Source: Nanobdellota archaeon (lineage in GTDB: Archaea > Aenigmatarchaeota > Aenigmatarchaeia > QMZP01). Taken from it: DNA of 44,835 bases. The translations under genes and the position numbers were made by a program. The stretch spans positions 82,314 through 127,148 of the forward strand of contig JAHIVW010000002.1 of the NCBI GenBank assembly GCA_018816245.1. Direction: 5' to 3'. Positions within the stretch are counted from its first letter, which is position 1; every line of letters starts with the position of its first letter. The notes beneath the pieces are model-generated. The model did not search any database. It had not been told where the DNA came from and saw only the letters and a list, made by a program, of their open reading frames with translations. Positions 10,561 to 44,061 of the stretch are shown here, in pieces.

Positions 10561-10575
10561 TTCTTTTTTGTTTTA

Positions 10576-12764: not shown

Positions 12765-12796
12765 GACTGGTGTAGCGGGCGGGGACTTATAAAAGT

Positions 12797-12813
12797 GTAT
12801 CACAGTGTTATAC
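12797..12813. promoter_or_regulatory. Operator palindrome, copy 2, upstream of dph2
   Basis: GTATCACAGTGTTATAC is a near-perfect inverted repeat around G12805 with one mismatched pair; three further bases on each side also pair (12795-12815). It lies just upstream of the dph2 TATA element and its centre is 41 bp from the ATG. In archaea a protein bound here would touch the BRE/TFB region, fitting either activation or exclusion of TFB. Confidence 0.7.
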
Positions 12814-12821
12814 ACCCTAAG

Positions 12822-12855
12822 CAGTTCGGCACGGTCGCGGGACAGTACCGAACTG
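12822..12855 (-). terminator. Stem-loop after the 12861-13076 gene
   Basis: Perfect 8-bp arms CAGTTCGG (12822-12829) and CCGAACTG (12848-12855), extendable to 10 of 11 pairs, lie five bases after the stop codon of the upstream minus-strand gene. They end six bases before the operator region of dph2. A terminator or insulating hairpin is likely, although no U-run follows. Confidence 0.5.
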
Positions 12856-12860
12856 GTGAG

Positions 12861-13076
12861 TCAGAAGGATTCGAACTCGACGACGTCACCCTCTCGGAAG
12901 TGGCAGCCGCCTCTGAGTGGGTTGCCATTTTCGTCAACGGCCCGCGAAAGCCGTCTGATGGGAAGCCGATCACGGAACGTGTCAGGATCCACGATCTCAC
13001 CGACGGAGACCCTTTTCTTGTGCCTCCTTCCGTCCTCGTCTTCCCATTTCACGGTGATGTGCGTTCGATATGACAC
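12861..13076 (-). CDS. Small beta-grasp-like protein C
   Basis: This 71-residue protein reads strand (HITVKWEDEDG), strand (RHKKRVSVGE), helix (DPDTFRDRLPIRRL), strand (AVDENGNPL) and the terminal REGDVVEFESF. The 'GD-V-x-F' ending is the conserved turn and last strand of ubiquitin/ThiS/TGS-type folds. The start is a GTG at 13076 with a strong SD (AAAGGAGG) seven bases away; it overlaps the previous gene by 28 nt. It is third in the run A-B-C after the transporter gene. No di-glycine tail is present and the function is unknown. The fold call is by pattern and should be modelled. Confidence 0.6.
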   Translation of the reverse strand: MSYRTHITVKWEDEDGRRHKKRVSVGEIVDPDTFRDRLPIRRLSRAVDENGNPLRGGCHFREGDVVEFESF

Positions 13077-13321
13077 TGTATGTCCTCCTTTCCATTAGTC
13101 GAAACAACCTTGAAGATAACCATGTCCCCTTCGAAGAGGGGTTCGTCTTCTTCAAGAAGGATACCGTAGAAAAACGCCTTCGCTTGTTTTGGAATGCTTG
13201 GGAACATCACCCGAAGGCGTGCCGGTGTTAACTCCTCGTTGGTGAGGGTGACAACTTCATGCCTCTTCGTCCTCGGCGGTCCCCGCTCCTTCCAGATGAC
13301 CGTAGCGCTTCCTTCGATCAT
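13049..13321 (-). CDS. Small beta-grasp-like protein B
   Basis: This 90-residue protein shows strand (ATVIWKERG), strand (KRHEVVTL), helix (TPARLRVMFPSIPK), strand (FYGILLEEDE) and LFEGDMVIFKVV, then a short extra tail. It shares with protein A a 'x-MFPxIP' helix end and with A and C the 'GD-x-x-x-F' last strand, so the three look like diverged duplicates. The start at 13321 has only a weak SD (AGGTG), unlike its neighbours. Its 3' end overlaps gene C by 28 nt, so translation is coupled. Confidence 0.6.
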   Translation of the reverse strand: MIEGSATVIWKERGPPRTKRHEVVTLTNEELTPARLRVMFPSIPKQAKAFFYGILLEEDEPLFEGDMVIFKVVSTNGKEDIQCHIERTSP

Positions 13322-13336
13322 TGTGACACCTATTCC

Positions 13337-13558
13337 TTAAACGAAGTCGAACAGATCACCATGCTTGACGACATAATTGGTAGGATACGGCCAACCATCC
13401 TCAGCAAGAGGCCAGTGGTTCCTTGGAATATCCGGAAACATGTTCAGAAGATCTTCGATTACCGTAGTACTCGGAACATTACACTCTCGTCGTTGGGGTC
13501 CCTTGCTGTCAGTCCAGCGCACGAGGATATGAACTGTTTTTGATTCTGGTGTAGCCAT
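13337..13558 (-). CDS. Small beta-grasp-like protein A
   Basis: This 73-residue protein reads strand (VHILVRWTDSKG), strand (RRECNVPS), helix (VIEDLLNMFPDIPRN), strand (LAEDGWPYP) and VKHGDLFDFV at the very C-terminus. The order and the final 'GD-L-x-D-F' turn match beta-grasp domains of the ubiquitin/MoaD kind. The ATG at 13558 was preferred to 13576 because GAGGAGG (13563-13569) sits just upstream of it. The gene follows the transporter by 10 nt and is followed by B and C, so all four probably share one message. Confidence 0.6.
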   Translation of the reverse strand: MATPESKTVHILVRWTDSKGPQRRECNVPSTTVIEDLLNMFPDIPRNHWPLAEDGWPYPTNYVVKHGDLFDFV

Positions 13559-13568
13559 CTCAACCTCC

Positions 13569-14462
13569 TCACACAAGTTGCATCACAAGCCCGGACAACA
13601 TCAAGATCACCCCGATCGTCTTCCAACCAAGGTTGACCATGACCTCGTCGCGGTACCATTGAATGTTCCGTGCTGCGATCATGCCGGCCACCACGAACGC
13701 GAGCACCACGCCGCAATTCACGACTGTGTTCACCAGTGCCGTGGGCCGGGAACACAGAAACGCCTGGATCATAAACAGGATTCCGAAGCCGTTCAAGAAC
13801 TCCGAGGTCCCGATCAGCACCTTCCGCTTGAACGGAAGCCGCACAACCGGGAGGAACACGTGCCACGCGAACAGGGGAAACAGGAAGACCAGCACCGGCA
13901 CCAGCATCACCCGGCTCCAGGCGAAGATCTCCGGTGTCGTGAACCGGCAGCCTTTCAGCCACCGGATCTGGCACGCGTTCAACCCGAAGAACAAGGCATT
14001 GAACAGCATCAGCACGACCACCTGCCGCTGCGCCCGCCGCTTTCCTTGAGCGAAGGCAACGGTCGCCGCGATCATGAAGCCGCACGTCACGGCATCGCCG
14101 AGGGTCAGGGTCTCGCCGAGCCAGAACCATCCGATGAGCAGCGTCGGGATGAACGAGATCGGGAAGAGCGGGCCGATGACTGTCAAGTCCGACACCCGCA
14201 AGGCATAGAAGACAAACAGGACGTACGTCACGTACGTTACCCCGACACCCAGCAGGATGCAGAGTTCCTTGACCGGCGGACGCTCGAATCCAAAAAGCTT
14301 GATGCAAAGCGCACCAAGCACAGCCTGGACAACGATCAGGACATGGATCATCTGGATGGGAGAGAGCACGTTCCCTGTCCCGTTCCGAAGCAGCTTGGTG
14401 CTGCGAATGTAGTTCGCCGCCCCGAAACAAAAGGAGGCGACGAGAATATCACTAAGCCACAT
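13569..14462 (-). CDS. DMT/EamA-type membrane transporter
   Basis: This 297-residue protein has ten predicted membrane helices arranged as two halves. Features of the drug/metabolite transporter superfamily are visible, including 'VTYVLFVFYALRVSDLTVIGPLFPI' style helices (positions about 75-102) and the 'GWFWLGETLTLGD' block that ends helix 4, typical of EamA domains. The substrate cannot be predicted. The start ATG at 14462 has a strong SD, AAAGGAGG (14468-14475). Directly before that SD is a terminator-like hairpin with a run of six U, so expression may be set by attenuation. It leads the operon with the three beta-grasp-like genes. Confidence 0.8.
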   Translation of the reverse strand: MWLSDILVASFCFGAANYIRSTKLLRNGTGNVLSPIQMIHVLIVVQAVLGALCIKLFGFERPPVKELCILLGVGVTYVTYVLFVFYALRVSDLTVIGPLFPISFIPTLLIGWFWLGETLTLGDAVTCGFMIAATVAFAQGKRRAQRQVVVLMLFNALFFGLNACQIRWLKGCRFTTPEIFAWSRVMLVPVLVFLFPLFAWHVFLPVVRLPFKRKVLIGTSEFLNGFGILFMIQAFLCSRPTALVNTVVNCGVVLAFVVAGMIAARNIQWYRDEVMVNLGWKTIGVILMLSGLVMQLV

Positions 14463-14478
14463 GGCCGCCTCCTTTCAG

Positions 14479-14554
14479 AAAAAAGGGAGGCAGCGACGGC
14501 CCGGGAAGGAGACAGGGAATGGCGATTTCCCTGTCTTTGTACCGCCGCTGCCTC
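14479..14554 (-). promoter_or_regulatory. Nested hairpin with U-run just before the transporter SD (possible attenuator)
   Basis: On the minus strand an outer stem GAGGCAGCG (14554-14546) pairs with CGCTGCCTC (14495-14487), with a further CGG/CCG pairing after one mismatch. It encloses an inner perfect 9-bp stem, GACAGGGAA with TTCCCTGTC (14535-14527 and 14519-14511). Six U (14484-14479) follow the outer stem at once, then the SD of the transporter four bases later. This is the form of an intrinsic terminator or riboswitch expression platform. Confidence 0.55.
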
Positions 14555-14571
14555 TTGGTTATCAGAAAAGT

Positions 14572-14641
14572 GTGTGACCGTGACGAATGCTTTCCTTGGG
14601 GGAGGAGGAAGGAAGAGTACTCACACCCACCACGGTCACAC
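14572..14641 (-). repeat. 11-bp inverted repeat, second stem in the transporter leader
   Basis: GTGTGACCGTG (14572-14582) and CACGGTCACAC (14631-14641) are perfect inverted copies 48 bp apart. They lie just upstream (in the minus-strand sense) of the terminator-like hairpin. The 48-nt loop is purine/pyrimidine biased. It may be a sensor stem, or the terminator of the preceding gene pair. The 14642-14711 stretch contains only AT-rich TATA-like sequence and no gene. Confidence 0.45.
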
Positions 14642-14711
14642 GTCTCACCTATATGCTCAAAAATATCCTGTACGACGCCGCTTTAGAGAGTTTCAGTCGG
14701 AACGCGGACTG

Positions 14712-15266
14712 TTACTCTTCGCTGAGGTTTCTCCCGGTCATTGTTGAGATAAGCCCTGCGAAGACCTCCTCCAACACATCGCACAGGGAAGAGAACCGTT
14801 GAACATCCGGCGGCGCAAACTTGCGTGCAACCGCAAGAACGAGCTGCTCCGGATCAAGCTCCGGCCTCCGTGCCGTGTTTATGATCTCGTCGAAGTTCGC
14901 GAGGAACAACGCCCGCTCCTCGAGCGTTGCAGGCGGCAACCCTGCGCGCGCGAGTTCGATGTCGAGCGCCTGTTCGTAGCCGGAACGGGACAGCTTGCAC
15001 CCGTTCTGCAGGGCCTTCGGAAGCTGGGCGAGCAACGCTTCGATAATGCCTTTCTTCATGGCAGCGCATCGTTCCTCGCCAAGATGCTCCCAAACACTCT
15101 TCTTCAGCGCCGTGGCAAACTCGTCTTTGAAGACGATCCCCTGGACAGCAACCAAGGTTCGCAAGGTCCGTTCGTAATGTCCAGGAAGGTGAGGATCGTC
15201 ATTCACTACATCCTCTTGCGCCTGCTTGAGGACACCGTCGATCAGCATTTGTACCCGGTCATCCAT
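14712..15266 (-). CDS. Unknown helical protein H
   Basis: I do not recognise this 184-residue, largely alpha-helical, soluble, acidic protein. It contains a central pair of helices around KKSVWEHLGEERCAAMKKGI and a C-terminal helix LCDVLEEVFAGLISTM. No signal peptide, membrane helix or metal motif is visible. The ATG at 15266 was chosen over the GTG at 15269 because AGGAGGC (15271-15277) sits at proper spacing. The SD overlaps the end of the preceding 65-residue gene, so the two are coupled. Confidence 0.6.
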   Translation of the reverse strand: MDDRVQMLIDGVLKQAQEDVVNDDPHLPGHYERTLRTLVAVQGIVFKDEFATALKKSVWEHLGEERCAAMKKGIIEALLAQLPKALQNGCKLSRSGYEQALDIELARAGLPPATLEERALFLANFDEIINTARRPELDPEQLVLAVARKFAPPDVQRFSSLCDVLEEVFAGLISTMTGRNLSEE

Positions 15267-15275
15267 CACAGCCTC

Positions 15276-15473
15276 CTAGCCCTTCGCTTCCCGGAGGAGC
15301 GCAAGGAACTCCTGCTCATCCTCCGCAGTGACCGATAGTCCGTGCAACTTCAGCAGAACTTCTCTGAAGATCTGGAGGTACACCTCTTCCCGTTGCGGCG
15401 TGAGGTTCCGGTCGTCGATCTTCACGAGATTGAGAAACGTTTGAGCGACCTTACGCTTCTTGTCGTGCACCAT
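15276..15473 (-). CDS. Unknown 65-residue helical protein G
   Basis: A short, charged, helical protein (MVHDKKRKVAQTFLNLVKID...). The ATG at 15473 is preceded by AAGGAGGG, and this decides the start against the longer upstream frame. Two helices are predicted, about residues 4-18 and 28-62, with the second rich in Glu/Leu (EEVYLQIFREVLLKL). It opens the minus-strand accessory block and is followed within 10 nt by gene H. No family is recognised. Confidence 0.55.
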   Translation of the reverse strand: MVHDKKRKVAQTFLNLVKIDDRNLTPQREEVYLQIFREVLLKLHGLSVTAEDEQEFLALLREAKG

Positions 15474-15618
15474 ACCCTCCTTAGAAACGACGTCTTTCGA
15501 CGTCTTGTGAGAAAATCCACCCGCGCTCCCGCTCCCTGATGCGAACAATCAACTGACTGTTCATTCCTGCTTCAGGTCAAGCCCAAAGGACTTGGAACGC
15601 CAACGTGGGTGGTGTGAG
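15474..15618 (-). promoter_or_regulatory. Structured leader before genes G and H
   Basis: If transcription starts about 26 nt downstream of the TATA-like CTATAAATAG (minus strand, 15641-15650), a leader of roughly 145 nt results, unlike the leaderless neighbours. A 6-bp hairpin GACGTC-GAAA-GACGTC (15489-15504) lies just before the SD, and a longer-range CCACCC/GGGTGG pairing is possible. No gene is seen in it. Confidence 0.4.
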
Positions 15619-15636
15619 AAATCACTGTTTGGGAGT

Positions 15637-15652
15637 GAACTATTTATAGTTC
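15637..15652. promoter_or_regulatory. Palindromic TATA element between block gene G and HMG-CoA reductase
   Basis: GAACTATTTATAGTTC has perfect 7-bp arms around a 2-bp centre and includes TATAAATA on the minus strand, a near-consensus archaeal TATA box directed at gene G. It is also about 20 bp upstream of the TTTAAA (15671-15676) used by the divergent HMG-CoA reductase gene. A regulator binding the palindrome would block the minus-strand promoter. Confidence 0.5.
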
Positions 15653-15697
15653 TTCGGCCTTGCATAGGCATTTAAACCTCAACTCGAGGCGAAACGT

Positions 15698-16969
15698 ATG
15701 GAACTGTATCGCAGGCTCGTCAAGGGGGACGTCAAGCCCCACGAACTCGAAATGATCATCTGGGAGGAGCAGTACCAGAAAGATCCTGATCATTGGGTCA
15801 AGGCACACGAAGAAGCAGCACTCCTCCGGCTGAAATACTACGAACAACACACCAAGAAGTCCCTGGACACAATCGGCCGGCATTTCATTTCCACAGCCAA
15901 GAACGGTACAGTTGGGATCGAACAGGCAATCGGCGGCGCAGTCATTCCCCTCGGGGTTGCCGGTCCCCTCAGAGTGAACGGCACCGAGGCACGGGGCGAT
16001 TTCTTCCTGCCAGCAGCCACCAACGAGGCAGCATTGATTGCCGGTCTCACTCGCGGCTGCAAGACCCTCAACGCCGCAAACGGTGTTGAGGTCGTGATCA
16101 CACGCGATCACATGGCACGCGCACCGGTGGTTGAAGCGAACACCATTGAAACAGCGCAGAAGATCGCCGCAGAGATCAACGAGCACAGCGAGTTGTACGA
16201 TGCCATGCGCGAGGCAGCAGAAGCAGACGCAACAGTATCGAAACTCAAGGACATTGTCCCGTTCCAGATGGGGCGGCGACTCTACATCCGCTTTACCTTT
16301 ACCACCGGGGACGCCATGGGTATGAACTCAGTGACGAAGTACGCAGGCAATGGCGTGCGCGCCTTACTCAAGCAACATCCACTTCTCAAGCTGGTCAGCT
16401 TAACCGGCAACATGTGCACGGACAAGAAGGCGTCGCATGTGAATGTTCTGCTTGGTCGAGGAAAATCTGTAGAAACCGAGGTTGTGTTGCCCGCGCGACT
16501 CGTCAAGAAAATGTTCGGCGTCGAGGCAGCGGACATTGCCAACCTGAACCGCATCAAGAACTTGGAAGGAAGTGCATTGTCCGGAACGATCTCGGGGTTC
16601 AATGCAAATGCAGCGAACACCGTTGCTGCCCTGTTCCTGGCAACAGGACAAGACGCAGCACAAATCGTGGAATCAAGTTCCTGTTTCACCCATGCAGAAC
16701 TGAACAAGGACACCTTGTTATTCGGGGTGTCCATGCCGTCACTCGAAGTCGCCACCGTGGGCGGGGGTACTGGCTTTGGCACGGCGAAAGAGGCCTTAAG
16801 CCTCCTCGGTTGTGCAGGTCCGGGCTCAAAACCAGGCGCGAATGCGCGCAAGCTTGCCGAGATCATCGCTGCTGCGGTGACCGCACAAGAACTGAATCTG
16901 CTCGCTGCAGAAGCGCACGGGTATGAGCTTGCGGATTCACATATCCGACTCGCACGCGGGAAAAACTAG
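15698..16969 (+). CDS. hmgA: 3-hydroxy-3-methylglutaryl-CoA reductase, class I
   Basis: This 423-residue enzyme reduces HMG-CoA to mevalonate with NADPH, the committed step towards archaeal isoprenoid lipids. The visible blocks are the substrate-binding LTRGCKTLNAANGVEV region, the cofactor motif TGDAMGMNSVTKYAG, the NANAANTVAALFLATGQD stretch with the catalytic aspartate, and the C-terminal TVGGGTGFGTAKEALSLLG. The length and class I layout are normal; the catalytic His expected near the C-terminus is probably in 'EAHGYELADSH'. TTTAAA at 15671-15676 is centred 24-25 nt before the ATG, giving a leaderless message. It is divergent from the accessory block. Confidence 0.93.
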   Translation: MELYRRLVKGDVKPHELEMIIWEEQYQKDPDHWVKAHEEAALLRLKYYEQHTKKSLDTIGRHFISTAKNGTVGIEQAIGGAVIPLGVAGPLRVNGTEARGDFFLPAATNEAALIAGLTRGCKTLNAANGVEVVITRDHMARAPVVEANTIETAQKIAAEINEHSELYDAMREAAEADATVSKLKDIVPFQMGRRLYIRFTFTTGDAMGMNSVTKYAGNGVRALLKQHPLLKLVSLTGNMCTDKKASHVNVLLGRGKSVETEVVLPARLVKKMFGVEAADIANLNRIKNLEGSALSGTISGFNANAANTVAALFLATGQDAAQIVESSSCFTHAELNKDTLLFGVSMPSLEVATVGGGTGFGTAKEALSLLGCAGPGSKPGANARKLAEIIAAAVTAQELNLLAAEAHGYELADSHIRLARGKN

Positions 16970-17007
16970 GGAAAAACCTTTTTACTGTAATGCGTGCAGG
17001 GTGCAGT

Positions 17008-18369
17008 ATGAAACCGTTTCACGCATATGATATTCGCGGACCGTATCCCGACGACGTGAACGAAACCTTTGCGGAAAACCTCGGACGCGCGTTCGCACGG
17101 TGGTTAGGAAACAAATATCCAAACAAGAAGCTTTCTGTTGCTGTCGGATCCGACGTCCGGCTCTCAAGCCCGTCATTGAAAAAGGCACTGGTGGCCGGTT
17201 TGACGCAAGCTGGCTGCGATGTCATCGATGTCGGCGTTGTTCCCACGCCTGTTGTCTATTTCGCAAGCGTAACCAAGAAAACCGACGGTGCTATTGTTGT
17301 TACTGCAAGCCACAACCCCGGAAACGACAACGGCTTCAAGCTCTGCGCCCGGGACGCGCAGTGCATCAGCTACGAAGCCGGGATGCACGAGATTGAAAGT
17401 CTTATGGACGAGCCATTGGTGTCAGTGGAACCGGGAACCGTCACAAACGTGGACATTGTTCCTGCGTACATTGCAGACATGCTGTCGAAAACAACGGTCC
17501 CGAAGCTCCGCATCGTTGTCGACGCGGCAAACGGCGCCATGTCGGACATTGCGCCGCGCGCACTGGAACAGGCCGGCCTTGACGTGGTCCCGTTGTACTG
17601 CGTTCCGGACGGCACGTTCCCGAACCACGAGGCAGATCCGCTCAAGCTCGAGAACATGCGGGATTTAATGGCCGCGGTCACTGAATACCAGGCTGATCTC
17701 GGCATCGGCCTTGACGGTGACGGCGACCGCCTTAATTTCGTTGACAAACATGGGAAGATTGTGGACAGCGACCTGATCATTTCCTTGCTCGCGCGGACCG
17801 TCCTGAAACAGCAGCCGGGCGCTATGATTTTGTCAAATGTGCTGGCGTCGCAAACCGTCACGGATACCATCAAGCAGCACGGCGGCACGACCAAGACGTG
17901 CCGGGTGGGCCACACCTACATTATGGACCTCATGCGCGAGGTTGGCGCAGCCTTCTGCGGGGAACCAGGCAGCGGCCACTACTTCTTCGCGGACAATTAC
18001 AATTACGACGACGCCCTGTACGCAACCCTGAAAGTGCTCGAGGCTATCGGCACAACGCCGCTGCACGAAGCAGTTGCCGACATTCCCCGGTACAAAACAT
18101 CACCTGAATACCGGCCAACCGTGTCGCATGAACAGAAAACAAGAATTGTGAATGACATTGCAGAGGAATTGCGGAAGACGTACGACGTGAACACGCTTGA
18201 CGGCGTGCGCGTGCAGCTGGACGACGGGTGGTTCATCATCCGGCCGTCGAACACGCAGCCGCGGATCTCGATCCGGTTTGAAGGGAAGACCGACGAGGCG
18301 TACGCGCGCATTCACGATCTTGTTGAAACACTTCTTGCAAAACACAACGTTACCTTGGAGTGCACATGA
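17008..18369 (+). CDS. Phosphomannomutase/phosphoglucomutase
   Basis: This 453-residue alpha-D-phosphohexomutase carries the phosphoserine loop TASHNP (Ser101), the metal loop DGDGDRLNF near residue 240 and the sugar-binding GEPGSGHYF near 320. It interconverts hexose 1- and 6-phosphates, feeding nucleotide sugars. The ATG at 17008 was chosen over 16990 because the TATA-like T-rich element at about 16978-16985 is then 26-27 nt away. The stop overlaps the next ATG as ATGA. With the following isomerase it would take fructose-6-P to mannose-1-P, useful for glycosylating the sequon-rich surface proteins (inference). Confidence 0.9.
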   Translation: MKPFHAYDIRGPYPDDVNETFAENLGRAFARWLGNKYPNKKLSVAVGSDVRLSSPSLKKALVAGLTQAGCDVIDVGVVPTPVVYFASVTKKTDGAIVVTASHNPGNDNGFKLCARDAQCISYEAGMHEIESLMDEPLVSVEPGTVTNVDIVPAYIADMLSKTTVPKLRIVVDAANGAMSDIAPRALEQAGLDVVPLYCVPDGTFPNHEADPLKLENMRDLMAAVTEYQADLGIGLDGDGDRLNFVDKHGKIVDSDLIISLLARTVLKQQPGAMILSNVLASQTVTDTIKQHGGTTKTCRVGHTYIMDLMREVGAAFCGEPGSGHYFFADNYNYDDALYATLKVLEAIGTTPLHEAVADIPRYKTSPEYRPTVSHEQKTRIVNDIAEELRKTYDVNTLDGVRVQLDDGWFIIRPSNTQPRISIRFEGKTDEAYARIHDLVETLLAKHNVTLECT

Positions 18370-19325
18370 TCGAACAGCTTGCCCGCGACTTCCCCGATCA
18401 GTGCACGCAGGCAGCAAAGCAGACGATCTCGCTCTCCTTCACGAAAGATGACATCACCGCAATCGTGTGCGTTGGCATGGGCGGCAGCGGCATGCCCGCG
18501 TCCCTGATCAAGGACGCGTTCGATGTGTCGCTTCCTGTTCTTGTTATTAAGGACGAAGTCCTGCCGGCGTTTGCGGACGAAAAAACCCTGCTGATCCCGG
18601 TTTCCTATTCCGGCAACACCTATGAAACCCTGGCCGTGTTCAAGGAAGGCCTGAACCGCGGCTGCAAGATCGCTGGCGTGACCAGCGGCGGGGAACTGCT
18701 GCGCTTGTTGGAAGAGCACAACCTGCCCTTTGTCCGGGTGCCGGACACGATACCGTTGCAGCGCATGAGCGTCGGCTGGCAGTTCTTTGCGATTGCAGCT
18801 ATTTTTTCAGCACTGAAACTGGTTGACCGGAAGCGGTACCTGCACATCGGTTCCTTCTTGGCCGCACACCAGGATCAGTTGCAGCAGCGCGCAGCGGAAC
18901 TCGCTTCCCAGTTTGATGACAAACTGCTCGTCGTGTACAGTACTGCGCCGGCGATCGTGACGCGGTGCCTCGGCCAATTCAACGAAAACGCGAAACAGCT
19001 CGTGCACGGGTCCGTGTGCCCGGAGCTGAACCACAACGAGATCAACGCGTTCCAGACCGTGCAGAAGCACGTCCGCGTGCTCCGGTTCCGGCTGGACACG
19101 GAAAGCGAGAAGATCAAGACGGCGTATGCGTTCTTTGCTGACACCGTGACCGCCCAGGGAGTTCCGCTGATTGATATTCCTCCGCTCGGTGCAACAAAGC
19201 TTGAACAACTGTTCGCGCACGTGTACCTCACTGACTTGCTGAGCATCGCACTGGCAAAGCAATGGAAGATTGACGCAGAAACGATCCCGCTTATTGGCGA
19301 GCTGAAGAGACGGCTGGGCACGTGA
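18366..19325 (+). CDS. Bifunctional phosphoglucose/phosphomannose isomerase
   Basis: This 319-residue SIS-domain protein has the sugar-phosphate loops VGMGGSGMPASLI and VSYSGNTYETL, and the catalytic region PELNHNEINAF of the archaeal PGI/PMI family, which interconverts glucose-6-P, fructose-6-P and mannose-6-P. The ATG at 18366 overlaps the mutase stop (ATGA) and has GGAG about seven bases upstream, which decides it against the GTG at 18360. Co-transcription with the mutase gives a compact route into mannose nucleotides. Confidence 0.9.
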   Translation: MIEQLARDFPDQCTQAAKQTISLSFTKDDITAIVCVGMGGSGMPASLIKDAFDVSLPVLVIKDEVLPAFADEKTLLIPVSYSGNTYETLAVFKEGLNRGCKIAGVTSGGELLRLLEEHNLPFVRVPDTIPLQRMSVGWQFFAIAAIFSALKLVDRKRYLHIGSFLAAHQDQLQQRAAELASQFDDKLLVVYSTAPAIVTRCLGQFNENAKQLVHGSVCPELNHNEINAFQTVQKHVRVLRFRLDTESEKIKTAYAFFADTVTAQGVPLIDIPPLGATKLEQLFAHVYLTDLLSIALAKQWKIDAETIPLIGELKRRLGT

Positions 19326-19359
19326 CACGGTTTTAAGGCTTGGGTGCTCAAACAGGGAT

Positions 19360-20337
19360 ATGAGAACGCGTTATGCGGTCCTGGTGCTTGGCATCCTGCT
19401 GGCGGTTCCTGCGGTTGCTGCGCAGCCGATTGTTGCCGGGGAAGTAACCTGGACGCCTTCCATCACAACGAACACGGCTCATTGCTGGGACATTCCTTCC
19501 TGTAACCAGGAACTGTCCACGGGAAGCATACAGAAGATCGTCTACCTGGACAACGACATCACCGGCGTTGTCGGCAACGGGATTGCTATCTCCCGGAACA
19601 AGATCACCTTCGACGGGCAGGGTCATAAGATTACGGGGACGTCGGACGGGCAGAATGGGTACCTTGGGATTAATGCTAGATTCCGCAACGACGTGATGAT
19701 TCAGAACATTGAAGTTTCCGGGTTTGATGGGGGTATTGCTGCAGAGCAGACAAGTAATCTGCAAATTGTTAATAGTAAAATCAATAATAATCAATGGATT
19801 GGAGTGATGGTCGGAGGTACCAATGACATCGATATTAAGATCCTCGATAATGAGATGAAATTCAACGGATTTCAAGCATTGGGAGTTTATACTTCACAAA
19901 ATGTTGAGATAAAGGGAAACACATTCTATCAAAACAATCTTGTCTGTGCATCTAACTATCCAATCGAACTTCAAAGTGTCTCTAACTCGGTAATTGCAGA
20001 AAATACATTTGAACAAAACAATTACGGTCTTGAGCTGACAAATGGATATAACAACATTTTTTATCACAATAATTTCATTGGCAATGGTGTTGACGTCTCT
20101 GTGAACGGCGGCAGCGACAACGCCTTCTTCCTCCCCTACGATAGCCAGAACCCCAAGAACGGGGGCGGGAACCACTGGGCCGATCTCAGCGGCCCGTGCA
20201 CCGACCTCTACGACGGCCCTGACGTCCCCCAGACCACCGGCTCCCCGGACGGGATCTGCGATGCAGGCTATTTTGGAAATCCCTTGTATACTATAAATGA
20301 CAGTTACGCATTCGTTGCTCAGAACGGCTGGATTTAA
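19360..20337 (+). CDS. Secreted NosD-like right-handed beta-helix protein 1
   Basis: This 325-residue protein has a signal peptide (residues 1-21, ending AVAAQ). It then shows a Cys pair (CWDIPSCNQ), a strand-rich core of about 22-residue coils with many Asn (for example NLQIVNSKINNN and NVEIKGNTFYQNN), and a capping region LPYDSQNPKNGGGNHWADLSG. This is the parallel beta-helix family related to NosD and pectate-lyase folds, usually binding or cleaving carbohydrate. A TATA-like GTTTTAAGG is at 19329-19337. The middle of the gene (about 19740-20090) is far richer in A+T than its two ends, and the ends are nearly identical to those of the gene at 21952. Confidence 0.8.
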   Translation: MRTRYAVLVLGILLAVPAVAAQPIVAGEVTWTPSITTNTAHCWDIPSCNQELSTGSIQKIVYLDNDITGVVGNGIAISRNKITFDGQGHKITGTSDGQNGYLGINARFRNDVMIQNIEVSGFDGGIAAEQTSNLQIVNSKINNNQWIGVMVGGTNDIDIKILDNEMKFNGFQALGVYTSQNVEIKGNTFYQNNLVCASNYPIELQSVSNSVIAENTFEQNNYGLELTNGYNNIFYHNNFIGNGVDVSVNGGSDNAFFLPYDSQNPKNGGGNHWADLSGPCTDLYDGPDVPQTTGSPDGICDAGYFGNPLYTINDSYAFVAQNGWI

Positions 20338-20813: not shown

Positions 20814-20827
20814 GCACTGTTTTTCGT

Positions 20828-21682: not shown

Positions 21683-21711
21683 AGGGACGCATCCTGCCTG
21701 ACCGTACTGAA

Positions 21712-22989: not shown

Positions 22990-23032
22990 CCCCTTTCTTC
23001 TCTTTTATTCATCCTCATTTCAATAATATAAT

Positions 23033-26805: not shown

Positions 26806-26834
26806 GGACAATACTGAACGAAAGGAACACCGCA

Positions 26835-27352: not shown

Positions 27353-27375
27353 TTCAGGCAGAAGGAGGTTTTCTT

Positions 27376-27933
27376 ATGGTTACACCAACAGACCAAGAAC
27401 TGTTGGAGTTCCCTCCAAACGTCTTGGTCAAGCCCTGTCGCAAGTACATCGTGGATGTGGAGAAGACGAAGGCATACCTCTTCGGCATCCTCGGCCTGCT
27501 GCTCTTCTTCCTCGGGTGCTTGTGGTTCTTTCTCACGGAGTTTCCGGGCAATCTCTTCGTTGCGATCCTGGCGAACTTCGTCCTCTTCGCTTTGGGCGGC
27601 ATCTGCATCGTCATGAGCGGTGCAGCGGCCGAGACGATCAGAGTGTTCGATTGCTCTCAGGACAAGCAATTGCCACAGCCAACATTTGAAGCGCGGCTAG
27701 GATGGGTATGTGCTGGCGTCCTCCTTTGTGGTGTCGGCTGGTTTCTCATTTGCCTTTCTGTTGATCCAACGATCTGGTGGTTGTCCAGGGTTGGAATCGC
27801 CCTTCTCATCCTCGCGGTCATGACTCTCTTCATCTTCGGTGGCGTCGGGCAACGGTACCTATTGTGGCGGTATAAGGTTCTCCAGCCCGATGGGGGACCT
27901 GACGTGTTCCGCTACATGAAGCAAGTGACGTAG
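27376..27933 (+). CDS. Unknown four-helix membrane protein
   Basis: This 185-residue protein has a soluble N-terminus (about 30 residues), two membrane helices (about 33-53 and 58-80), a short polar loop, two more helices (about 108-126 and 133-152) and a basic C-terminal tail ending in FRYMKQVT. SD AAGGAGGTT precedes the ATG at 27376. The layout resembles the upstream membrane protein (two helical hairpins with a cytoplasmic tail), and they may be distant paralogues. Confidence 0.62.
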   Translation: MVTPTDQELLEFPPNVLVKPCRKYIVDVEKTKAYLFGILGLLLFFLGCLWFFLTEFPGNLFVAILANFVLFALGGICIVMSGAAAETIRVFDCSQDKQLPQPTFEARLGWVCAGVLLCGVGWFLICLSVDPTIWWLSRVGIALLILAVMTLFIFGGVGQRYLLWRYKVLQPDGGPDVFRYMKQVT

Positions 27934-27951
27934 TCACGAAGGAGGTTTCTC

Positions 27952-28497
27952 ATGATGATCTTCGTCAGAACAAAAGAAGGGGAGTCCTTTCTCTTCTCAC
28001 TCCAATTCTTGAGTTGGTGGATGGAGAAGACCCATCCCGAGATCGGTCTTTGGGAGATCACAGACGTTTCTTCTGCAACCATCGAGCGGATCCACGATGA
28101 TGCAGAAGGGGGGATCAGGACAGCAACGATCCTCGGAAGGGTTTACCATGCCGGCAAGACGAGAACCGGCTTGGTCACAGTGACTCATGCTGTTGTTCCG
28201 AAGGGTGCGAACAAGGACATCTCTCCACTTCATGCCGTCTATACCATAGAAAACGGTATTTTTGTGGGTCGTCCTGGTGGCAAGCTCCTGCGTGTCATGT
28301 TCAGCGGAACAGAAGCAGCCGTCAAGGAGCTCAAGAGCGGTCCTTTGTCTGCGGATAATAGATTCATTGAATTGTTGTCCCCGCAGACGGTCCCCTTTAA
28401 TCAATCACAGCTCTCGGCTCTGGGCAACACGGTCCGAATGGGCCCGAGCGGAAGTGAGCAGATCGTCGCCCAGATCCCGGTCTGGGCAGGGACGTAA
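27952..28497 (+). CDS. Unknown soluble protein of the five-gene operon
   Basis: This 181-residue, strand-rich soluble protein has no signal peptide or membrane helix. It contains TILGRVYHAGKTRTGLVTVTHAVV and a C-terminal segment IVAQIPVWAGT. An excellent SD (AAGGAGGTTTCTC) precedes the ATG. I recognise no family. Its position between two membrane proteins suggests a cytoplasmic partner. Confidence 0.58.
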   Translation: MMIFVRTKEGESFLFSLQFLSWWMEKTHPEIGLWEITDVSSATIERIHDDAEGGIRTATILGRVYHAGKTRTGLVTVTHAVVPKGANKDISPLHAVYTIENGIFVGRPGGKLLRVMFSGTEAAVKELKSGPLSADNRFIELLSPQTVPFNQSQLSALGNTVRMGPSGSEQIVAQIPVWAGT

Positions 28498-28513
28498 CAC
28501 GGAGGAGCTTGGA

Positions 28514-28975
28514 ATGAGCAATTATGCTACAGCACACACCGATCGGACGAAGTTCTGCATCAGGAGCATTGTCTGGGGTGTTCTGGTCTGTGCCTTCGCA
28601 CTCCTGGGATTCTGGGACTGGCTTGGTGTCTGGCTCCGGATCCTGCTCTTCCTGATGGGCATTCTCATCACGGGGTTCACTATTTCTCAGGTGTCACGAT
28701 GGGGAAACATCTCAGGAGAGTTCTGTATCTACAGTCCTCCTTCGAAGGTGAACCTCAGCTTTTCGTGGATCCAAAAGGTTGCCCCCCCTGTTGGTATATT
28801 CTCCTTCCTTGGTGGCGTGGTTTTCCTTTTCCTGCAGATCCTCTTCCCACAATGGTTGTTCTATATTCTCTTTGTCGGGGCCTTCCTCCTCTTTTCTGGA
28901 ATGGTCTTCGCAGATGAGTATTGGGTTGTCATTGACAGGGAGAGGTTCGAGCCCGAACTCTGGGAACCCTATTGA
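28514..28975 (+). CDS. Unknown membrane protein, last gene of the five-gene operon
   Basis: This 153-residue protein has two N-terminal helices (about 18-36 and 41-58), a polar loop with FCIYSPPSKVNLSF, two further helices (about 92-112 and 115-132) and the acidic tail RERFEPELWEPY. This four-helix layout again resembles the genes at 26835 and 27376. The ATG at 28514 is preceded by GGAGGAG; the longer upstream frame overlaps the previous gene and lacks an SD. A strong stem-loop follows at 29002-29045. Confidence 0.6.
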   Translation: MSNYATAHTDRTKFCIRSIVWGVLVCAFALLGFWDWLGVWLRILLFLMGILITGFTISQVSRWGNISGEFCIYSPPSKVNLSFSWIQKVAPPVGIFSFLGGVVFLFLQILFPQWLFYILFVGAFLLFSGMVFADEYWVVIDRERFEPELWEPY

Positions 28976-29001
28976 TAACCATGTGGGGTTGCGAGAAGGC
29001 G

Positions 29002-29045
29002 AAAACAGGGAGGGGGTGTCAGAAACGATAACCCCTTTCTGTTTT
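29002..29045 (+). terminator. Stem-loop terminator after the five-gene operon
   Basis: Arms AAAACAGGGAGGGGGT (29002-29017) and AACCCCTTTCTGTTTT (29030-29045) pair over about 15 positions with a 12-nt loop, ending in UUUU. It stops just five bases before the operator region of the next promoter, insulating the two units. Confidence 0.65.
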
Positions 29046-29049
29046 GAAT

Positions 29050-29066
29050 GTATAACAGTGTCATAA
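29050..29066. promoter_or_regulatory. Operator palindrome, copy 3, upstream of the agmatinase-dys operon
   Basis: GTATAACAGTGTCATAA is an inverted repeat around G29058 with two mismatched pairs, matching the other copies. A TATA-like CATATTAATA follows at about 29070-29079, and the ATG at 29101 is 43 bp from the centre. The geometry is the same as for dph2 and the PQQ operon. Confidence 0.65.
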
Positions 29067-29100
29067 CATCATATTAATATCTTCCCCCAGTACCAGTACC

Positions 29101-29910
29101 ATGCTCCACACCCGCCGCACCTTTTCCTTCGAACACCCACCTGAGGAAGCAGAGTTTGCGCTGTTCGGCATCCCCTGGGATGCAAGTGAAACCGGTACGT
29201 CCGTCAAGCATGGCCCCCTCTTCATCCGGGAGGCCCTCAAGAACATCCCTGGGTACGACCCGCAAACCAAAACCAACCCATTCGAACGAAAATGGACCGA
29301 CCTCGGCGACATTGAGCCGGTCGTGAACAACTGGAAGCTTACCAAACAGGCAATCACGGAAACGATCAACGAGCTCCTCACGACCAACCCGAACATCATC
29401 CCCATCACCATGGGCGGCGACCACCTCATCACCCTCGGCATCCTCGAGGTCCTCAAACAACACAAAAAGTTCACGGTTGTTCATTTTGACGCGCACGCTG
29501 ACCTGTCCACGGACTGGATGGGCGAGCCGTACGCGCACATCACCTGGGCATCCCACATTCTGAAGGATCTGAAGCTCGTGCAGTTCGGCGTCCGCTCCAT
29601 GACACAAGAAGAAGCAGTTCTCATTGAACAACAGAAGATTCCACAGAACAATCTCGAAGCAATCACCGGCCCGATCTACGTCACTGTTGATCTTGATGTT
29701 CTCGATCCCGGCTTCGCTCCCGACGTCGGCACTCCCGAGCCGAACGGCATGGATCCCAAAACATTCTTCTCGTTGTTAGATTCCCTCTTTGCAAAGCATC
29801 CGCTCGTTGGCCTGGACATCGTTGAATGTGCAGCAACCAGGATCAATACCCCGACTGCCGTTATCGCCGCACAGGTGATTAAAAAGGCTGCAGTGTATAG
29901 CAAGGTATGA
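29101..29910 (+). CDS. speB: Agmatinase/ureohydrolase family protein
   Basis: This 269-residue arginase-fold protein keeps the two-manganese site: His108 in MGGDH, Asp130-His132-Asp134 in HFDAHAD, and Asp197/Asp199 in TVDLDVLDP. Typical agmatinases convert agmatine to putrescine and urea. Its operon also encodes deoxyhypusine synthase. In Haloferax volcanii an agmatinase-like enzyme is reported to act in hypusine formation when agmatine rather than spermidine is the donor, so a role on modified aIF5A is plausible here. The stop overlaps the following ATG (ATGA). A leaderless message is suggested by the TATA element about 26 nt upstream. Confidence 0.85.
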   Translation: MLHTRRTFSFEHPPEEAEFALFGIPWDASETGTSVKHGPLFIREALKNIPGYDPQTKTNPFERKWTDLGDIEPVVNNWKLTKQAITETINELLTTNPNIIPITMGGDHLITLGILEVLKQHKKFTVVHFDAHADLSTDWMGEPYAHITWASHILKDLKLVQFGVRSMTQEEAVLIEQQKIPQNNLEAITGPIYVTVDLDVLDPGFAPDVGTPEPNGMDPKTFFSLLDSLFAKHPLVGLDIVECAATRINTPTAVIAAQVIKKAAVYSKV

Positions 29911-30077
29911 ATCTCCTCATCCTCCTCGGTGCGATCCTGATCATTGTTGGGATCATTGCAGCGGCAGTCACGGCTTGGATTGACATCCCTGACTTTCTCA
30001 CCATCGGGCTGCTCATGATCATCGCCGGTGTTGTCATCGCGTTGTTGTCCGCCATGCCCGAAGAGAAGAAAGAGTGA
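29907..30077 (+). CDS. 56-residue two-helix membrane protein
   Basis: A very small protein starts with the ATGA overlap and ends four bases before the deoxyhypusine synthase ATG. Two hydrophobic helices (residues about 2-22 and 30-48) are joined by a short loop (TAWIDIPDF), with an acidic/basic tail PEEKKE. Its exact fit between two coupled genes supports it as real. The role is unknown; it could anchor the neighbouring enzymes or be a small permease-like peptide. Confidence 0.6.
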   Translation: MNLLILLGAILIIVGIIAAAVTAWIDIPDFLTIGLLMIIAGVVIALLSAMPEEKKE

Positions 30078-30081
30078 TCAT

Positions 30082-31014
30082 ATGGACGTTCCGGTGAAGG
30101 ACTACACCATTGGCAAGAACACCTCGCTCAGCGACCTGGGAAAACAATACTTTGACGCGGGCGGCTTTGTTGCCAAGAAGGTCGGCGTTGCAATCGACAT
30201 CATGAAGCAGATGACGTCGGAAAAAGATGCCGTGAACTTTCTATCGTTCCCTGCAGCAACCGTGTCAACAGGGACGCGCGGCATCTTCGTGCAACTCCTC
30301 AAGAAGAAGCTGTTCCACATCGTCATGACCACGTGCGGGACGCTAGATCACGACTTCGCGCGAGTGTATGTTGATTACTATCACGGTTCGTTTGATGCAG
30401 ACGACAAGGAACTGCACAAGAAGAACATCCACCGGCTCGGGAACATCTTCATTCCCAACAAACACTACGGTGATATTATTGAACAGAAGCTGCAGCCCAT
30501 GCTGCAGGACATGTACGATAAGGGCGTTCGGGAATTGGCAACGCACGAGTTCGTCTGGGAGCTCGGGAAACGATTGGAACAAGAACCCAAGAAAGAGGAA
30601 TCAATCATCTACTGGTGCTACAAAAATCAGATTCCCATGATCATCCCCGGGATTACGGACGGCGCATTCGGGATCCAGCTTACCATGTTCATGCAAGACC
30701 ACAAGGACTTCAAAATCGACGTGTTCAAGGACGAGCAGTTCCTGATCGGCAAGCTGTTCGGAAAGATCACGACCGGCGCGCTCATGATCGGCGGCGGCAT
30801 TTCAAAACACCACACGATCTGGTGGAACCAATGGTGTGACGGGCTGGATTATGCTGTCTATATTACCACGGCACCAGAATGGGACGGGTCGCTCTCCGGC
30901 GCGCGGCTCAAGGAAGGCATCAGCTGGGATAAGGTGAATGAGAACGCACGCTACATGACGGTTGAAGGGGACGCGACAGTGCTGCTGCCATTGATTGTCG
31001 GGCCATTGTTGTAA
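30082..31014 (+). CDS. dys: Deoxyhypusine synthase
   Basis: This 310-residue enzyme transfers an aminobutyl group to the conserved lysine of aIF5A. The active-site lysine is visible as Lys242 in GGGISKHH, and the family blocks FPAATVSTGTRG, DYAVYITTAPEWDGSLSGARLKEGISW and EGDATVLLP are present. The usual SNL and NAD-site segments are modified but recognisable. The ATG at 30082 was chosen because it follows the small gene by four bases and begins the conserved N-terminus; the 30028 frame would overlap. It is in one operon with the agmatinase-family gene, downstream of the shared operator. Confidence 0.9.
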   Translation: MDVPVKDYTIGKNTSLSDLGKQYFDAGGFVAKKVGVAIDIMKQMTSEKDAVNFLSFPAATVSTGTRGIFVQLLKKKLFHIVMTTCGTLDHDFARVYVDYYHGSFDADDKELHKKNIHRLGNIFIPNKHYGDIIEQKLQPMLQDMYDKGVRELATHEFVWELGKRLEQEPKKEESIIYWCYKNQIPMIIPGITDGAFGIQLTMFMQDHKDFKIDVFKDEQFLIGKLFGKITTGALMIGGGISKHHTIWWNQWCDGLDYAVYITTAPEWDGSLSGARLKEGISWDKVNENARYMTVEGDATVLLPLIVGPLL

Positions 31015-31019
31015 GTGAT

Positions 31020-31412
31020 TCAGGATTCCTGATACCCGGGAACGAACACATCTTTACAGACCATTTGTCTCCCACTCACGGCACAAACCTGAAAGGTACG
31101 ATCTACATCCGGATGTCGAACAATAAACCCTGTCATGGGATCACCAATACAGCTTGTAATCTGGCAGCTTCCGGCATGCTCGCAAATCTTCGAACAGCCT
31201 TCGTACTCCTCGGTGGACGAGCTTGTTGCAAGAATCTGGAGATTGTCAATGTTTGTGTTCACCACAAGTTGGAGGAGACCAGCAGAATGATCGGTGTAAA
31301 CGCTTACGTAGTCCAAGCTTACAACCTCAAAGTCGTCCTCCGATACCGGTCTTTCGATGCAGCCACTCACGACCACGAGCAGGAACAGCATCCCAACCAA
31401 CGCGGTTTTCAT
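31020..31412 (-). CDS. Secreted lipoprotein-like Cys-rich protein
   Basis: This 130-residue protein has a signal peptide and lipobox-like VVVSGCIERP (Cys18). The mature part holds six further Cys (CSKICEHAGSCQITSC, VCAVSG, VCKDV), probably disulfide-linked, so it acts outside the cell. TTTAAG at about 31433-31438 is placed about 24-26 nt before the ATG for a leaderless message. It is convergent with dys and stands alone. The family is unknown. Confidence 0.72.
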   Translation of the reverse strand: MKTALVGMLFLLVVVSGCIERPVSEDDFEVVSLDYVSVYTDHSAGLLQLVVNTNIDNLQILATSSSTEEYEGCSKICEHAGSCQITSCIGDPMTGFIVRHPDVDRTFQVCAVSGRQMVCKDVFVPGYQES

Positions 31413-31472
31413 GCTTGATGTAGAAAGAGCTGCCTTAAATCACTGACGTGGCTCCCCTCAGTACACCCGCTT

Positions 31473-31712
31473 TCAATGGTCGATCTTGACAATACCGATC
31501 ATCTTCTGTCTGAAATCAACTTCATAGAGAATTCGATATGACCCAATACGAATACGAAAGAGCATTTCCTTCGAACCACGAATTCTTTTCACATTACGAG
31601 GAAGAGGAGTTTTCTCAAGGGATTCTATTTTTTCGAGAATCTTTTCTCGAATTAACGGCTCTGCTCCTTGAAGAAACTTTCGTGCTTGGTGAGAGTAGAG
31701 AATTGTATGCAT
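31473..31712 (-). CDS. RelE/ParE-family toxin, truncated by a stop before its catalytic end
   Basis: This 79-residue protein matches RelE toxins from the N-terminus (HTILYSHQARKFLQG) through RIRGSKEMLFRIRIGSYRILYEV to IGIVKIDH. Active RelE proteins cleave mRNA on the ribosome and usually end in a motif like DHRxxVY, where the Arg and Tyr take part in catalysis. Here DH is followed by TGA (31475-31473) and then, in frame, AAG CGG GTG TAC TGA, that is K-R-V-Y-stop. A single CGA to TGA change would explain it. The toxin is therefore probably inactive, unless the stop is read through. It lies three bases after the antitoxin gene. Confidence 0.8.
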   Translation of the reverse strand: MHTILYSHQARKFLQGAEPLIREKILEKIESLEKTPLPRNVKRIRGSKEMLFRIRIGSYRILYEVDFRQKMIGIVKIDH

Positions 31713-31715
31713 ATT

Positions 31716-31904
31716 TCAGGCGAGCTCGTTCTTCACCGTCTTGTGAGAGACAAGCTTGCCTGCTTTCTTTTCTTTCCGATAGGCGTCCAATGCCTTGCGG
31801 TCGTCTTCGTTCATGATATGGTCCGGTTCCATAAGCTCCTGAATTTCTCTGATGTCGTTCACAATTTTTTCAAGCTTCGTGAGGATCTGTTGTTCCATAT
31901 TCAT
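31716..31904 (-). CDS. Antitoxin of the RelE-type pair
   Basis: This 62-residue, charged, helical protein (MNMEQQILTKLEKIVNDIREI...) ends in a basic Lys-rich segment (KEKKAGKLVSHKTVKNELA) typical of toxin-wrapping antitoxin tails. It precedes the toxin by three bases, the usual order. An AT-rich TATA element (TATTTAATA, about 31921-31931) and a 21-bp operator-like palindrome (31931-31951) lie directly upstream, matching autoregulated toxin-antitoxin promoters. Confidence 0.72.
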   Translation of the reverse strand: MNMEQQILTKLEKIVNDIREIQELMEPDHIMNEDDRKALDAYRKEKKAGKLVSHKTVKNELA

Positions 31905-31930
31905 CTGGGATTTCCTGTCTTATTAAATAT

Positions 31931-31951
31931 AAGGTTGATCCAATCAACCTT
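31931..31951. promoter_or_regulatory. Operator palindrome of the toxin-antitoxin promoter
   Basis: Perfect 9-bp arms AAGGTTGAT and ATCAACCTT flank CCA. It borders the antitoxin TATA element and is also about 30 bp before the TATA (CTTATAAG, 31980-31987) of the divergent beta-propeller gene, so binding could affect both. Confidence 0.6.
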
Positions 31952-32009
31952 TCGGTTTCTCCCGAACAAAATCCGCCTGGCTTATAAGTCATGAGACCAA
32001 GACCATCCC

Positions 32010-33956
32010 ATGCGAGGAACCATCACTGTGGGGGTCATCGTCGCTGTCGCAGCACTGATTGTCATCATCGGTGCGGTGTCCTTAACATCTCTTGATGTCG
32101 TCAGTGCAGACGAGCTCCCAACCTTCAGTTCCTGTAACGCTATCGTGGACAGCTTCCAGAGCCGACAATCAGGCTACAAAGGAGTCGGGATAGCAAATGA
32201 TCTGGCAATCGCTGAGAGTGCTGCGCCTCTCGCTGCCGGTGACAGCTATTCCCAAACTAATGTCCAGGTCGCGGGCATTGACGAAGCAGATATCGTGAAA
32301 ACCGACGGGTCGTTCATCTACACATTGTCTGGCACATACCTCGTCATTGCTGATGCAGACCCGTTGACGGTGCTTTCTGAAAGCAAACTTGAACTCATCT
32401 ATCCAGAGCAGCTCTTCATCGAGGGGAATCGCCTGCTCGTGCTCGGCATGAAGACACGGGAAATCGAACCACTTCCTGGAGAGCCGATCGCCAAGCCGCT
32501 CCTTGATGACATGGACGTGATTAGTGAACCACGGTATTACCCCTATACGATTTCCGAACTCGTTGCCCAGATATACGATATCACCGACAAGGCGAATCCA
32601 ACCCTTGTTCGTGAGATCGATCTTGAAGGATCACTGACTGCAGCACGGAAGATCGGCTCTGATATTTACCTCGTGTCCACATCCTATCCCCTGTATTACG
32701 CCTTAGAGGAACGCATTGTTCCTGAGTTCCGGGACACTGCTGTTTCAGAGGACTATGATATTGTTGCACCGTGTTCAGAAATCAGATACCTGCCACCTGT
32801 CCAAGCGAACTCTTTCATCACAGTTTCGAGTTTCTCCATGACCGACGAGACGCCAGTAGAAACCCAGACCATTGTCGGCACAGCAGAAAGCGTGTACATG
32901 TCGTACAACAAATTGTACGTTGCCCAGTCATACTGGCCCCAACCAACGCTCGGTGCACTGGTCCCCAATATTGATGTTCTCCCAAACTCAGAAACCATGA
33001 CGAATGTCTACGTGTTCTCGATTGCCGGAGGCATTTCCTATGACGGCCTGCTTACGGTTCCTGGCAGGGTCCTGAACCAGTTCTCCATGGATGAATACAA
33101 CAACGTGTTCCGGATCGCAACCACCCGGCAGAGCAACATGCGAAATGTCGACGTGCGGGAGCCGCAACAGACCAACGGGATCTATATCTTTGACGCAACC
33201 ACGCGGACCCAACTTGGTGCGCTTGACGGGCTTGCGCCGACCGAGCAGATCTATTCCGTGCGCTTCCTTGGCGACCGCGCCTATATGGTCACGTTCAAGA
33301 CCATTGATCCGTTGTTCGTTTTTGACGTGGCTGATCCAGCGAACCCGAAGCTCCTTGGTCAACTGAAGATCCCCGGCTACTCAGGCTACCTCCATCCGTA
33401 CGACGAGACGCACCTCATCGGCGTCGGGAAGGAAGCGATCGACAAAGGAAACTTCGCCTTGTTCCAGGGCGTGAAGCTCGCCCTCTTTGACGTGGGTGAT
33501 GTTGCGAATCCCAAGGAGCTCTCCTCTATTGAGATCGGTGAACGCGGGACGAGCACACCGGTGTTGTACGATCACAAGGCCTTCCTGTTCGACAAGGAGA
33601 AGAACCTGCTTGCGCTGCCCATCGAGCTCTACGAGAATGCCGGCGGGCCAAGCGGCTACGGCGAATTTACGTATCAGGGTCTGTACGTCTACCGGCTGAC
33701 CCTTGAGAACGGCTTCGAGCTGCTGGGAACGATTAGCCACAGCGACTTCGTCAAAGGTGCGCTCAGTCCTTGGGAGCACGCGGACCGGTTCGTGGAGCGC
33801 AGCATCTCCATCGGGAACGTCCTCTACAGCATCTCCCCCACGATGATCAAGGCGAACCAGCTCTTCGAGCTGGAAGAAGCGGGGGGCATCTCCTTTGGAG
33901 AACCGAATTCCTATCCCTGTCTTGGATGCGGGGGGATCGAGCCAGCGTTTATCTAA
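32010..33956 (+). CDS. Secreted beta-propeller domain protein
   Basis: This 648-residue protein has an N-terminal hydrophobic signal/anchor (residues about 5-28). It is followed by the Beta_propel family blocks: TNVQVAGIDEADIVKTDG, VAQIYDITDKANP, YMVTFKTIDPLFVFDVADPANPKLLGQLKIPGYS, and a Cys-containing end (PCLGCGG). This family occurs in archaea and bacteria as extracellular propellers that probably bind proteins or polymers. CTTATAAG at 31980-31987 is centred 26 nt before the ATG, so it is leaderless. It is separate from the PQQ propellers that follow. Confidence 0.85.
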   Translation: MRGTITVGVIVAVAALIVIIGAVSLTSLDVVSADELPTFSSCNAIVDSFQSRQSGYKGVGIANDLAIAESAAPLAAGDSYSQTNVQVAGIDEADIVKTDGSFIYTLSGTYLVIADADPLTVLSESKLELIYPEQLFIEGNRLLVLGMKTREIEPLPGEPIAKPLLDDMDVISEPRYYPYTISELVAQIYDITDKANPTLVREIDLEGSLTAARKIGSDIYLVSTSYPLYYALEERIVPEFRDTAVSEDYDIVAPCSEIRYLPPVQANSFITVSSFSMTDETPVETQTIVGTAESVYMSYNKLYVAQSYWPQPTLGALVPNIDVLPNSETMTNVYVFSIAGGISYDGLLTVPGRVLNQFSMDEYNNVFRIATTRQSNMRNVDVREPQQTNGIYIFDATTRTQLGALDGLAPTEQIYSVRFLGDRAYMVTFKTIDPLFVFDVADPANPKLLGQLKIPGYSGYLHPYDETHLIGVGKEAIDKGNFALFQGVKLALFDVGDVANPKELSSIEIGERGTSTPVLYDHKAFLFDKEKNLLALPIELYENAGGPSGYGEFTYQGLYVYRLTLENGFELLGTISHSDFVKGALSPWEHADRFVERSISIGNVLYSISPTMIKANQLFELEEAGGISFGEPNSYPCLGCGGIEPAFI

Positions 33957-33970
33957 CTTTTCTTGGTGTT

Positions 33971-33987
33971 GTATCACACCGTGATAC
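33971..33987. promoter_or_regulatory. Operator palindrome, copy 4, upstream of the PQQ-propeller operon
   Basis: GTATCACACCGTGATAC pairs 7 of 8 bases around C33979 (one more pair on each side). It is followed by a weak TATA element (CTTATTTC, about 33992-33999) and the ATG at 34020, 41 bp from its centre. Confidence 0.7.
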
Positions 33988-34019
33988 ACCTTCTTATTTC
34001 TCCAACCGTTACCTCTCCC

Positions 34020-44043: not shown

Positions 44044-44061
44044 GTGAATAAGAATACACCC

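Follow-up and report, generated by a model that had tools for sequence, protein, structure and literature searches.

The described systems closest to the element reported here are the bacterial regulators SufR, IscR and the RisR type, which control suf/isc and oxidative-stress genes and have an operator at their own gene. In the form of the binding site, the nearest comparisons are the operator of the Lambda/XRE repressors, which is 17 bp long with a TATCAC half-site, and the glycolytic motif of TrmBL1 in Thermococcales, TATCAC-N5-GTGATA. Aenigmatarchaeota are uncultured DPANN archaea, for which our literature searches turned up neither a regulator nor an operator. Here we describe a palindromic element with the core ATAACA-N-TGTTAT (17 bp including flanks, also written TATMAC-N3-GTKATA) in an Aenigmatarchaeota genome (G000; 886 kb, 88% complete), starting from a window of 44,835 nt, by which we mean the whole stretch of DNA that was analysed (assembly GCA_018816245.1, contig JAHIVW010000002.1, positions 82,314 to 127,148). 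We think it probable that a small XRE-type helix-turn-helix (HTH) autoregulator of the Fe-S (iron-sulfur)-biogenesis type uses the palindrome as its operator, and that the regulon of this protein has been rewired in this genome.

In the window, copies of the palindrome precede dph2, a unit of an agmatinase gene and dys, and a PQQ-propeller operon (Table 1). An initial annotation of this DNA had reported these three copies, their distances from the start codons and their placement upstream of the TATA element, and we found it to be right on each of these points: in all three cases a TATA-like element separates the site from the start. At the copy before the propeller operon, a T-rich tract lies ahead of the site, after the upstream stop codon. 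A fourth copy, for which the initial annotation gave no coordinates, is located in a convergent gap behind a gene for a protein like RNA polymerase subunit L. The window has four matches with up to three mismatches, compared to 0.10 expected from shuffled sequences.

We searched the genome with the symmetrised pattern DTATMACANTGTKATAH, using the reversed pattern as a control, and called genes with a codon model in the stretch read around each site. There are 44 sites with at most one mismatch, and the control has none. With up to two mismatches, all 54 sites lie between genes, with no intragenic scatter, in a genome with a coding density of 0.89 (165 kb). Of the 44 better sites, 23 lie in tandem gaps, 11 in divergent and eight in convergent ones, with two of uncertain orientation, and the background of gaps of at least 30 bp comprises 53 tandem, 24 divergent and seven convergent ones. 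With the exception of one doubtful gene call, no start codon facing a site is closer to it than 40 bp, and there is a strong cluster at 40-45 bp. In 22 of 37 flanks (at most 45 bp was read in each) a TATA-like hexamer separates the site from the start, compared to 5 in shuffled sequences. The gap between site and TATA is variable, and a fixed helical phase is not evident in this genome. We conclude from the strong promoter bias that the palindrome is a real element, and that selection acts on it.

Across the class, perfect palindromes are present in 83 of 156 genomes (2 in total for the control). To assign targets we took one locus per genome from 30 genomes, using Pfam for most assignments. 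In these loci, seven sites are at Fe-S assembly genes (nifS/sufS, sufC, iscU and sufT), seven at orc1/cdc6, four at a gene whose product is a small HTH protein (MKPYCE...), three at genes for superoxide dismutase/rubrerythrin or peroxiredoxin, and one each at a cation-efflux and a radical-SAM gene. When iscU loci were considered, 8 of 30 had a site at the gene itself or about one gene upstream, where a nifS-iscU unit would begin. In these relatives the site often overlaps or almost touches the start codon, and either placement is that of a repressor. Among 54 sites in five relatives, 25 are divergent, 19 are tandem and none is convergent. The operator is thus found both at suf/isc genes and at the gene of its probable regulator, as is typical of Fe-S-biogenesis regulators defined by function.

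As a separate observation, palindromes in the relatives cluster at replication genes (L215:688-900; also L209, L214 and L198). In G012 there are four palindromes before Hjc, with spacings of 64, 64 and 68 bp, and one beside orc1, as in G019; in G024 two palindromes lie between orc1 and a polymerase-like gene.

The most constant place of the site in the class is the gene for the small HTH protein. This XRE-type family, with members of about 100-125 amino acids, occurs in 125 of 156 genomes, and we take it to be COG2522-like. In 22 of 30 loci, a site with no more than one mismatch is located less than about 70 bp from the start of its gene (25 of 30 with up to two mismatches), an autoregulatory placement in which the site lies over the start codon in family f6 and directly upstream of TATA in f1. 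Most members have a C-terminal cysteine cluster of the form C-x2-C ... C-x2-H ... C-x2-C. The family is also linked to Fe-S loci: in 32 of 93 genomes, one of its members and an iscU-like gene are no more than 6.5 kb apart, compared to approximately 2 expected. Because the site marks the HTH protein's own gene as well as Fe-S, superoxide dismutase, peroxiredoxin and Orc1 places, the protein is most likely an Fe-S-biogenesis/redox regulator. Three family members match HTH_3 (PF01381) above the cut-off; otherwise Pfam and NCBIfam gave HTH_3 or weak unspecific matches, and none to the Rrf2/IscR or SufR families. We found no close solved structure, and no paper on this family, its operator or COG2522 in archaea. 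In methanogens, an Fe-S regulator goes by the name IssR1. The genome containing the window has a single family member (G000:C4:317073-317366) with the same kind of recognition helix, which is our candidate for the protein that binds its sites.

In this genome the link to Fe-S metabolism persists at the suf operon, where a core-perfect copy of the palindrome, ACATAACAGTGTTATTC, lies 58 bp ahead of the first open frame. The operon encodes SufB (with an intein-like LAGLIDADG insert), SufD, SufS and IscU. SufB is at L443:2697-5294 on the minus strand (G000:C4:280296-282893), and the first open frame of the operon codes for a LAGLIDADG protein too. The other genes adjoining sites encode proteins of translation (ribosomal proteins L1, L6, L23 and S15, and a class I tRNA synthetase), protein folding (prefoldin, and the thermosome with two sites) and RNA metabolism (exosome Rrp4, RtcB, archease, RNase P p29 and a TYW1-like enzyme). 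There are also a DRG-like GTPase, S-adenosylhomocysteine hydrolase, a topoisomerase, a CTP-dependent riboflavin kinase, transporters, CTP synthase (identified from sequence only), an XRE regulator, a protein with a GGDEF domain and one that is sigma-70-like. Among the proteins encoded next to sites, Dph2 and TYW1 are known Fe-S enzymes. The thermosome gene was considered as a conserved target and rejected, as the site before it is conserved only in this genome and in G025.

The genes for the sigma-70-like and GGDEF proteins and the sequence around some sites have further features. The sigma-70-like gene (L021:536-1258 minus; G000:C1, site C1:82038) is preceded by a perfect palindrome, 51 bp from the start, and this archaeal protein resembles sigma-70 in regions 2 and 4, with NCBIfam and Pfam matches below threshold. 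The gene for the GGDEF-domain (diguanylate cyclase-like) protein (L019:465-1241 minus; G000:C1, site C1:42338) is divergent from the CTP synthase gene, and the palindrome lies in the gap that the two share. By eye, we saw large hairpins followed by a T-rich stretch just ahead of the palindrome and facing the upstream gene end, at G000 C4:79077, 432746, 435295, 442620, 449875, 460509 and 506381 and at C6:26817 and 43760. These resemble intrinsic terminators, which is unusual for archaea.

The initial annotation had read the copies before dph2 and dys as the operator of a common regulator of translation-factor modification. One part of this proposal stands, namely that a single palindromic site for a protein is shared by several promoters and lies upstream of their TATA elements, which points to a common regulator, but the specificity does not: the site occurs at about 45 places in the same genome, whose neighbours are of very mixed function. 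The site-bearing genes are a mixed housekeeping set and not a translation-factor-modification regulon. The operator is also not conserved before the orthologs of dph2 and dys. In 29 other loci for each gene there is no site with at most one mismatch, and the few matches with two mismatches are all at least 188 bp away. In spite of the two well-placed copies in the window (centres 41 and 43 bp before the starts), we therefore consider a dedicated diphthamide and hypusine regulator to be extremely improbable.

We propose instead that a dimer of the small HTH protein would bind the palindrome. In the cysteine-bearing relatives, binding would be tuned by an Fe-S cluster, with repression of the genes for Fe-S assembly and for the stress response; repression is what would be expected of a site located 7-22 bp before a start codon. 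In the genome containing the window, cluster control would have been lost or changed, and the regulon would have expanded to about 45 places, including suf, dph2, the agmatinase-dys unit and the propeller operon. The position of the site upstream of TATA in this genome would suit activation.

Several observations weigh against this proposal. The majority of the targets in this genome are not Fe-S genes, and eight of its sites are in convergent gaps, where a promoter is not expected. The family member encoded there lacks the cysteine cluster, with one cysteine left, and its gene is preceded only by a degenerate, half-intact site (7.9 bits). Among the relatives, loss of the cysteines and number of sites do not go together: we looked by eye for such a trend and rejected it, as G002 and G022 are cysteine-poor with few sites, and G012 and G014 are cysteine-bearing with many. 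The genomes of group f5 retain the HTH family with only 0-2 sites, and some of the family members counted as linked to iscU are of a paralogue type that has no site. The site sets were found with a pattern derived from this one genome, which makes their likeness in base composition partly circular, but not their placement. A variant of the proposal, in which loss of the cysteine sensor turned an Fe-S-sensing repressor into a general DNA-binding factor between units of every orientation, serving many housekeeping genes as an upstream promoter element and boundary (including convergent gene ends and the origin), is as a whole a tentative idea that we think has some chance of being correct.

In place of a regulatory operator, the palindrome in this genome could be a boundary or roadblock at which a bound protein keeps adjacent transcription units apart, stops incoming polymerase on a T-rich tract and shields promoters, in the manner of Reb1. 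Its occurrence in tandem, divergent and convergent gaps, with no under-representation of convergent ones relative to the background, is in line with this model. In flanks facing a gene end, the last 15 bp before the site are 41-53% T and 12-24% A, although a T-rich tract would be expected downstream of an archaeal gene in any case and these figures have no control from gene ends without a site. The eight convergent sites and the T-rich tract at gene-end flanks keep the model alive for this genome, but the complete lack of convergent sites in the five relatives, the divergent sites that have no incoming gene end, and the overlap with start codons in distant families make it unlikely. We consider even less likely that the palindrome is a small mobile repeat that spread through gaps and has no regulatory role; this would account for its high copy number and for the longer flanks shared by the neighbouring loci C4:84262 and C4:86539, but other flanks are unrelated, none of the 54 sites is inside a gene, the placement is upstream of TATA, and placement at the same gene families is conserved across the class, so that there is hardly any case for it.

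If the palindrome is an operator, its binder could also be another protein. The first candidate was a pan-archaeal XRE protein encoded beside the Orc1 origin (G000:C6:8084-8812), which has an HTH_3 domain. In this genome a perfect site lies 43 bp upstream of its start codon, and its gene has sites in 6 of 29 relatives. We rejected it, and now see little chance that it is the binder, because its recognition helix hardly varies among genomes with anything from 0 to 44 sites, including those where the motif is absent, and because across archaea its gene has a different element, similar to TCGACA-N2-TGTCGA, within 150 bp upstream in 28 of 78 loci (4.2 in shuffled sequences, and 2 inside the gene). 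The small HTH family has the palindrome before its gene far more often. The TCGACA-N2-TGTCGA-like element was seen in loci L223-L302 and is perhaps the operator of the pan-archaeal XRE protein itself.

Coordinates of the features in the window are collected in Table 1. Two further genes in the window were seen. One (37921-38787) is a LAGLIDADG endonuclease-like gene immediately 3' of the propeller operon, and the other (44044-44562) is a MarR/GbsR-like regulator gene at the window end, without a copy of the palindrome.

Table 1. Palindrome copies, TATA-like elements and associated genes in the 44,835-nt window.
Feature	Position	Strand	Basis or match	Remark
Palindrome copy ATATAACACTGTTATAC	10575..10591		1 mismatch	15 bp past rpoL-like stop codon
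dph2, diphthamide synthesis protein	11883..12767	-	Pfam PF01866	
TATA-like element of dph2	12787..12794	-	sequence	gene side of site
Palindrome copy GTATCACAGTGTTATAC	12797..12813		exact consensus fit	centre 41 bp before dph2 start
Palindrome copy GTATAACAGTGTCATAA	29050..29066		2 mismatches	centre 43 bp before agmatinase start
TATA-like element, agmatinase-dys unit	29072..29079	+	sequence	
Arginase/agmatinase family gene	29101..29910	+	Pfam PF00491	
dys, deoxyhypusine synthase	30028..31014	+	Pfam PF01916	true start probably 30082
Palindrome copy GTATCACACCGTGATAC	33971..33987		1 mismatch	centre 41 bp before first propeller gene
TATA-like element, propeller operon	33994..33999	+	sequence	
Three PQQ-propeller genes	34020..37881 (34020-35303, 35300-36601, 36598-37881)	+	Pfam (first), sequence similarity (others)	

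For a group of uncultured archaea, sequence alone shows here an operator, its probable regulator, the ancestral targets and how a regulon has expanded. This opens the control of Fe-S assembly and of the redox response, together with its connection to the replication origin, to direct tests in vitro. If the cysteines of the sensor were indeed lost while the targets multiplied, the genome described here would be a visible case of a specific regulator turning into a global factor.

The system shares features with several known ones. It resembles Reb1-type factors of yeast in having sites between transcription units of every orientation and, in the genome containing the window, a T-rich tract before the site, but the protein is unrelated and the five relatives have no convergent sites; the likeness is one of sequence arrangement. 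With the TrmBL1 motif it has in common the half-site and a placement either upstream or downstream of TATA, for which opposite effects would be expected. It differs in having a spacer of 3 in all copies, unrelated target genes and a probable regulator of XRE rather than TrmB type. Similarly, it is like the lambda/XRE operators in being an odd-centred 17-bp palindrome with a similar half-site and an HTH_3 protein, but its spacer is 3 and not 5, and its regulon is cellular. With the bacterial SufR, IscR and RisR-type regulators it shares an autoregulated operator, suf/isc and oxidative-stress targets and, in most relatives, a regulator with a cysteine cluster, which may hold an Fe-S cluster. Unlike SufR and IscR, the regulator is a short XRE-type HTH protein that would act on archaeal promoters, and the origin region is among its targets. 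The system appears to work like SufR/IscR without belonging to those families.

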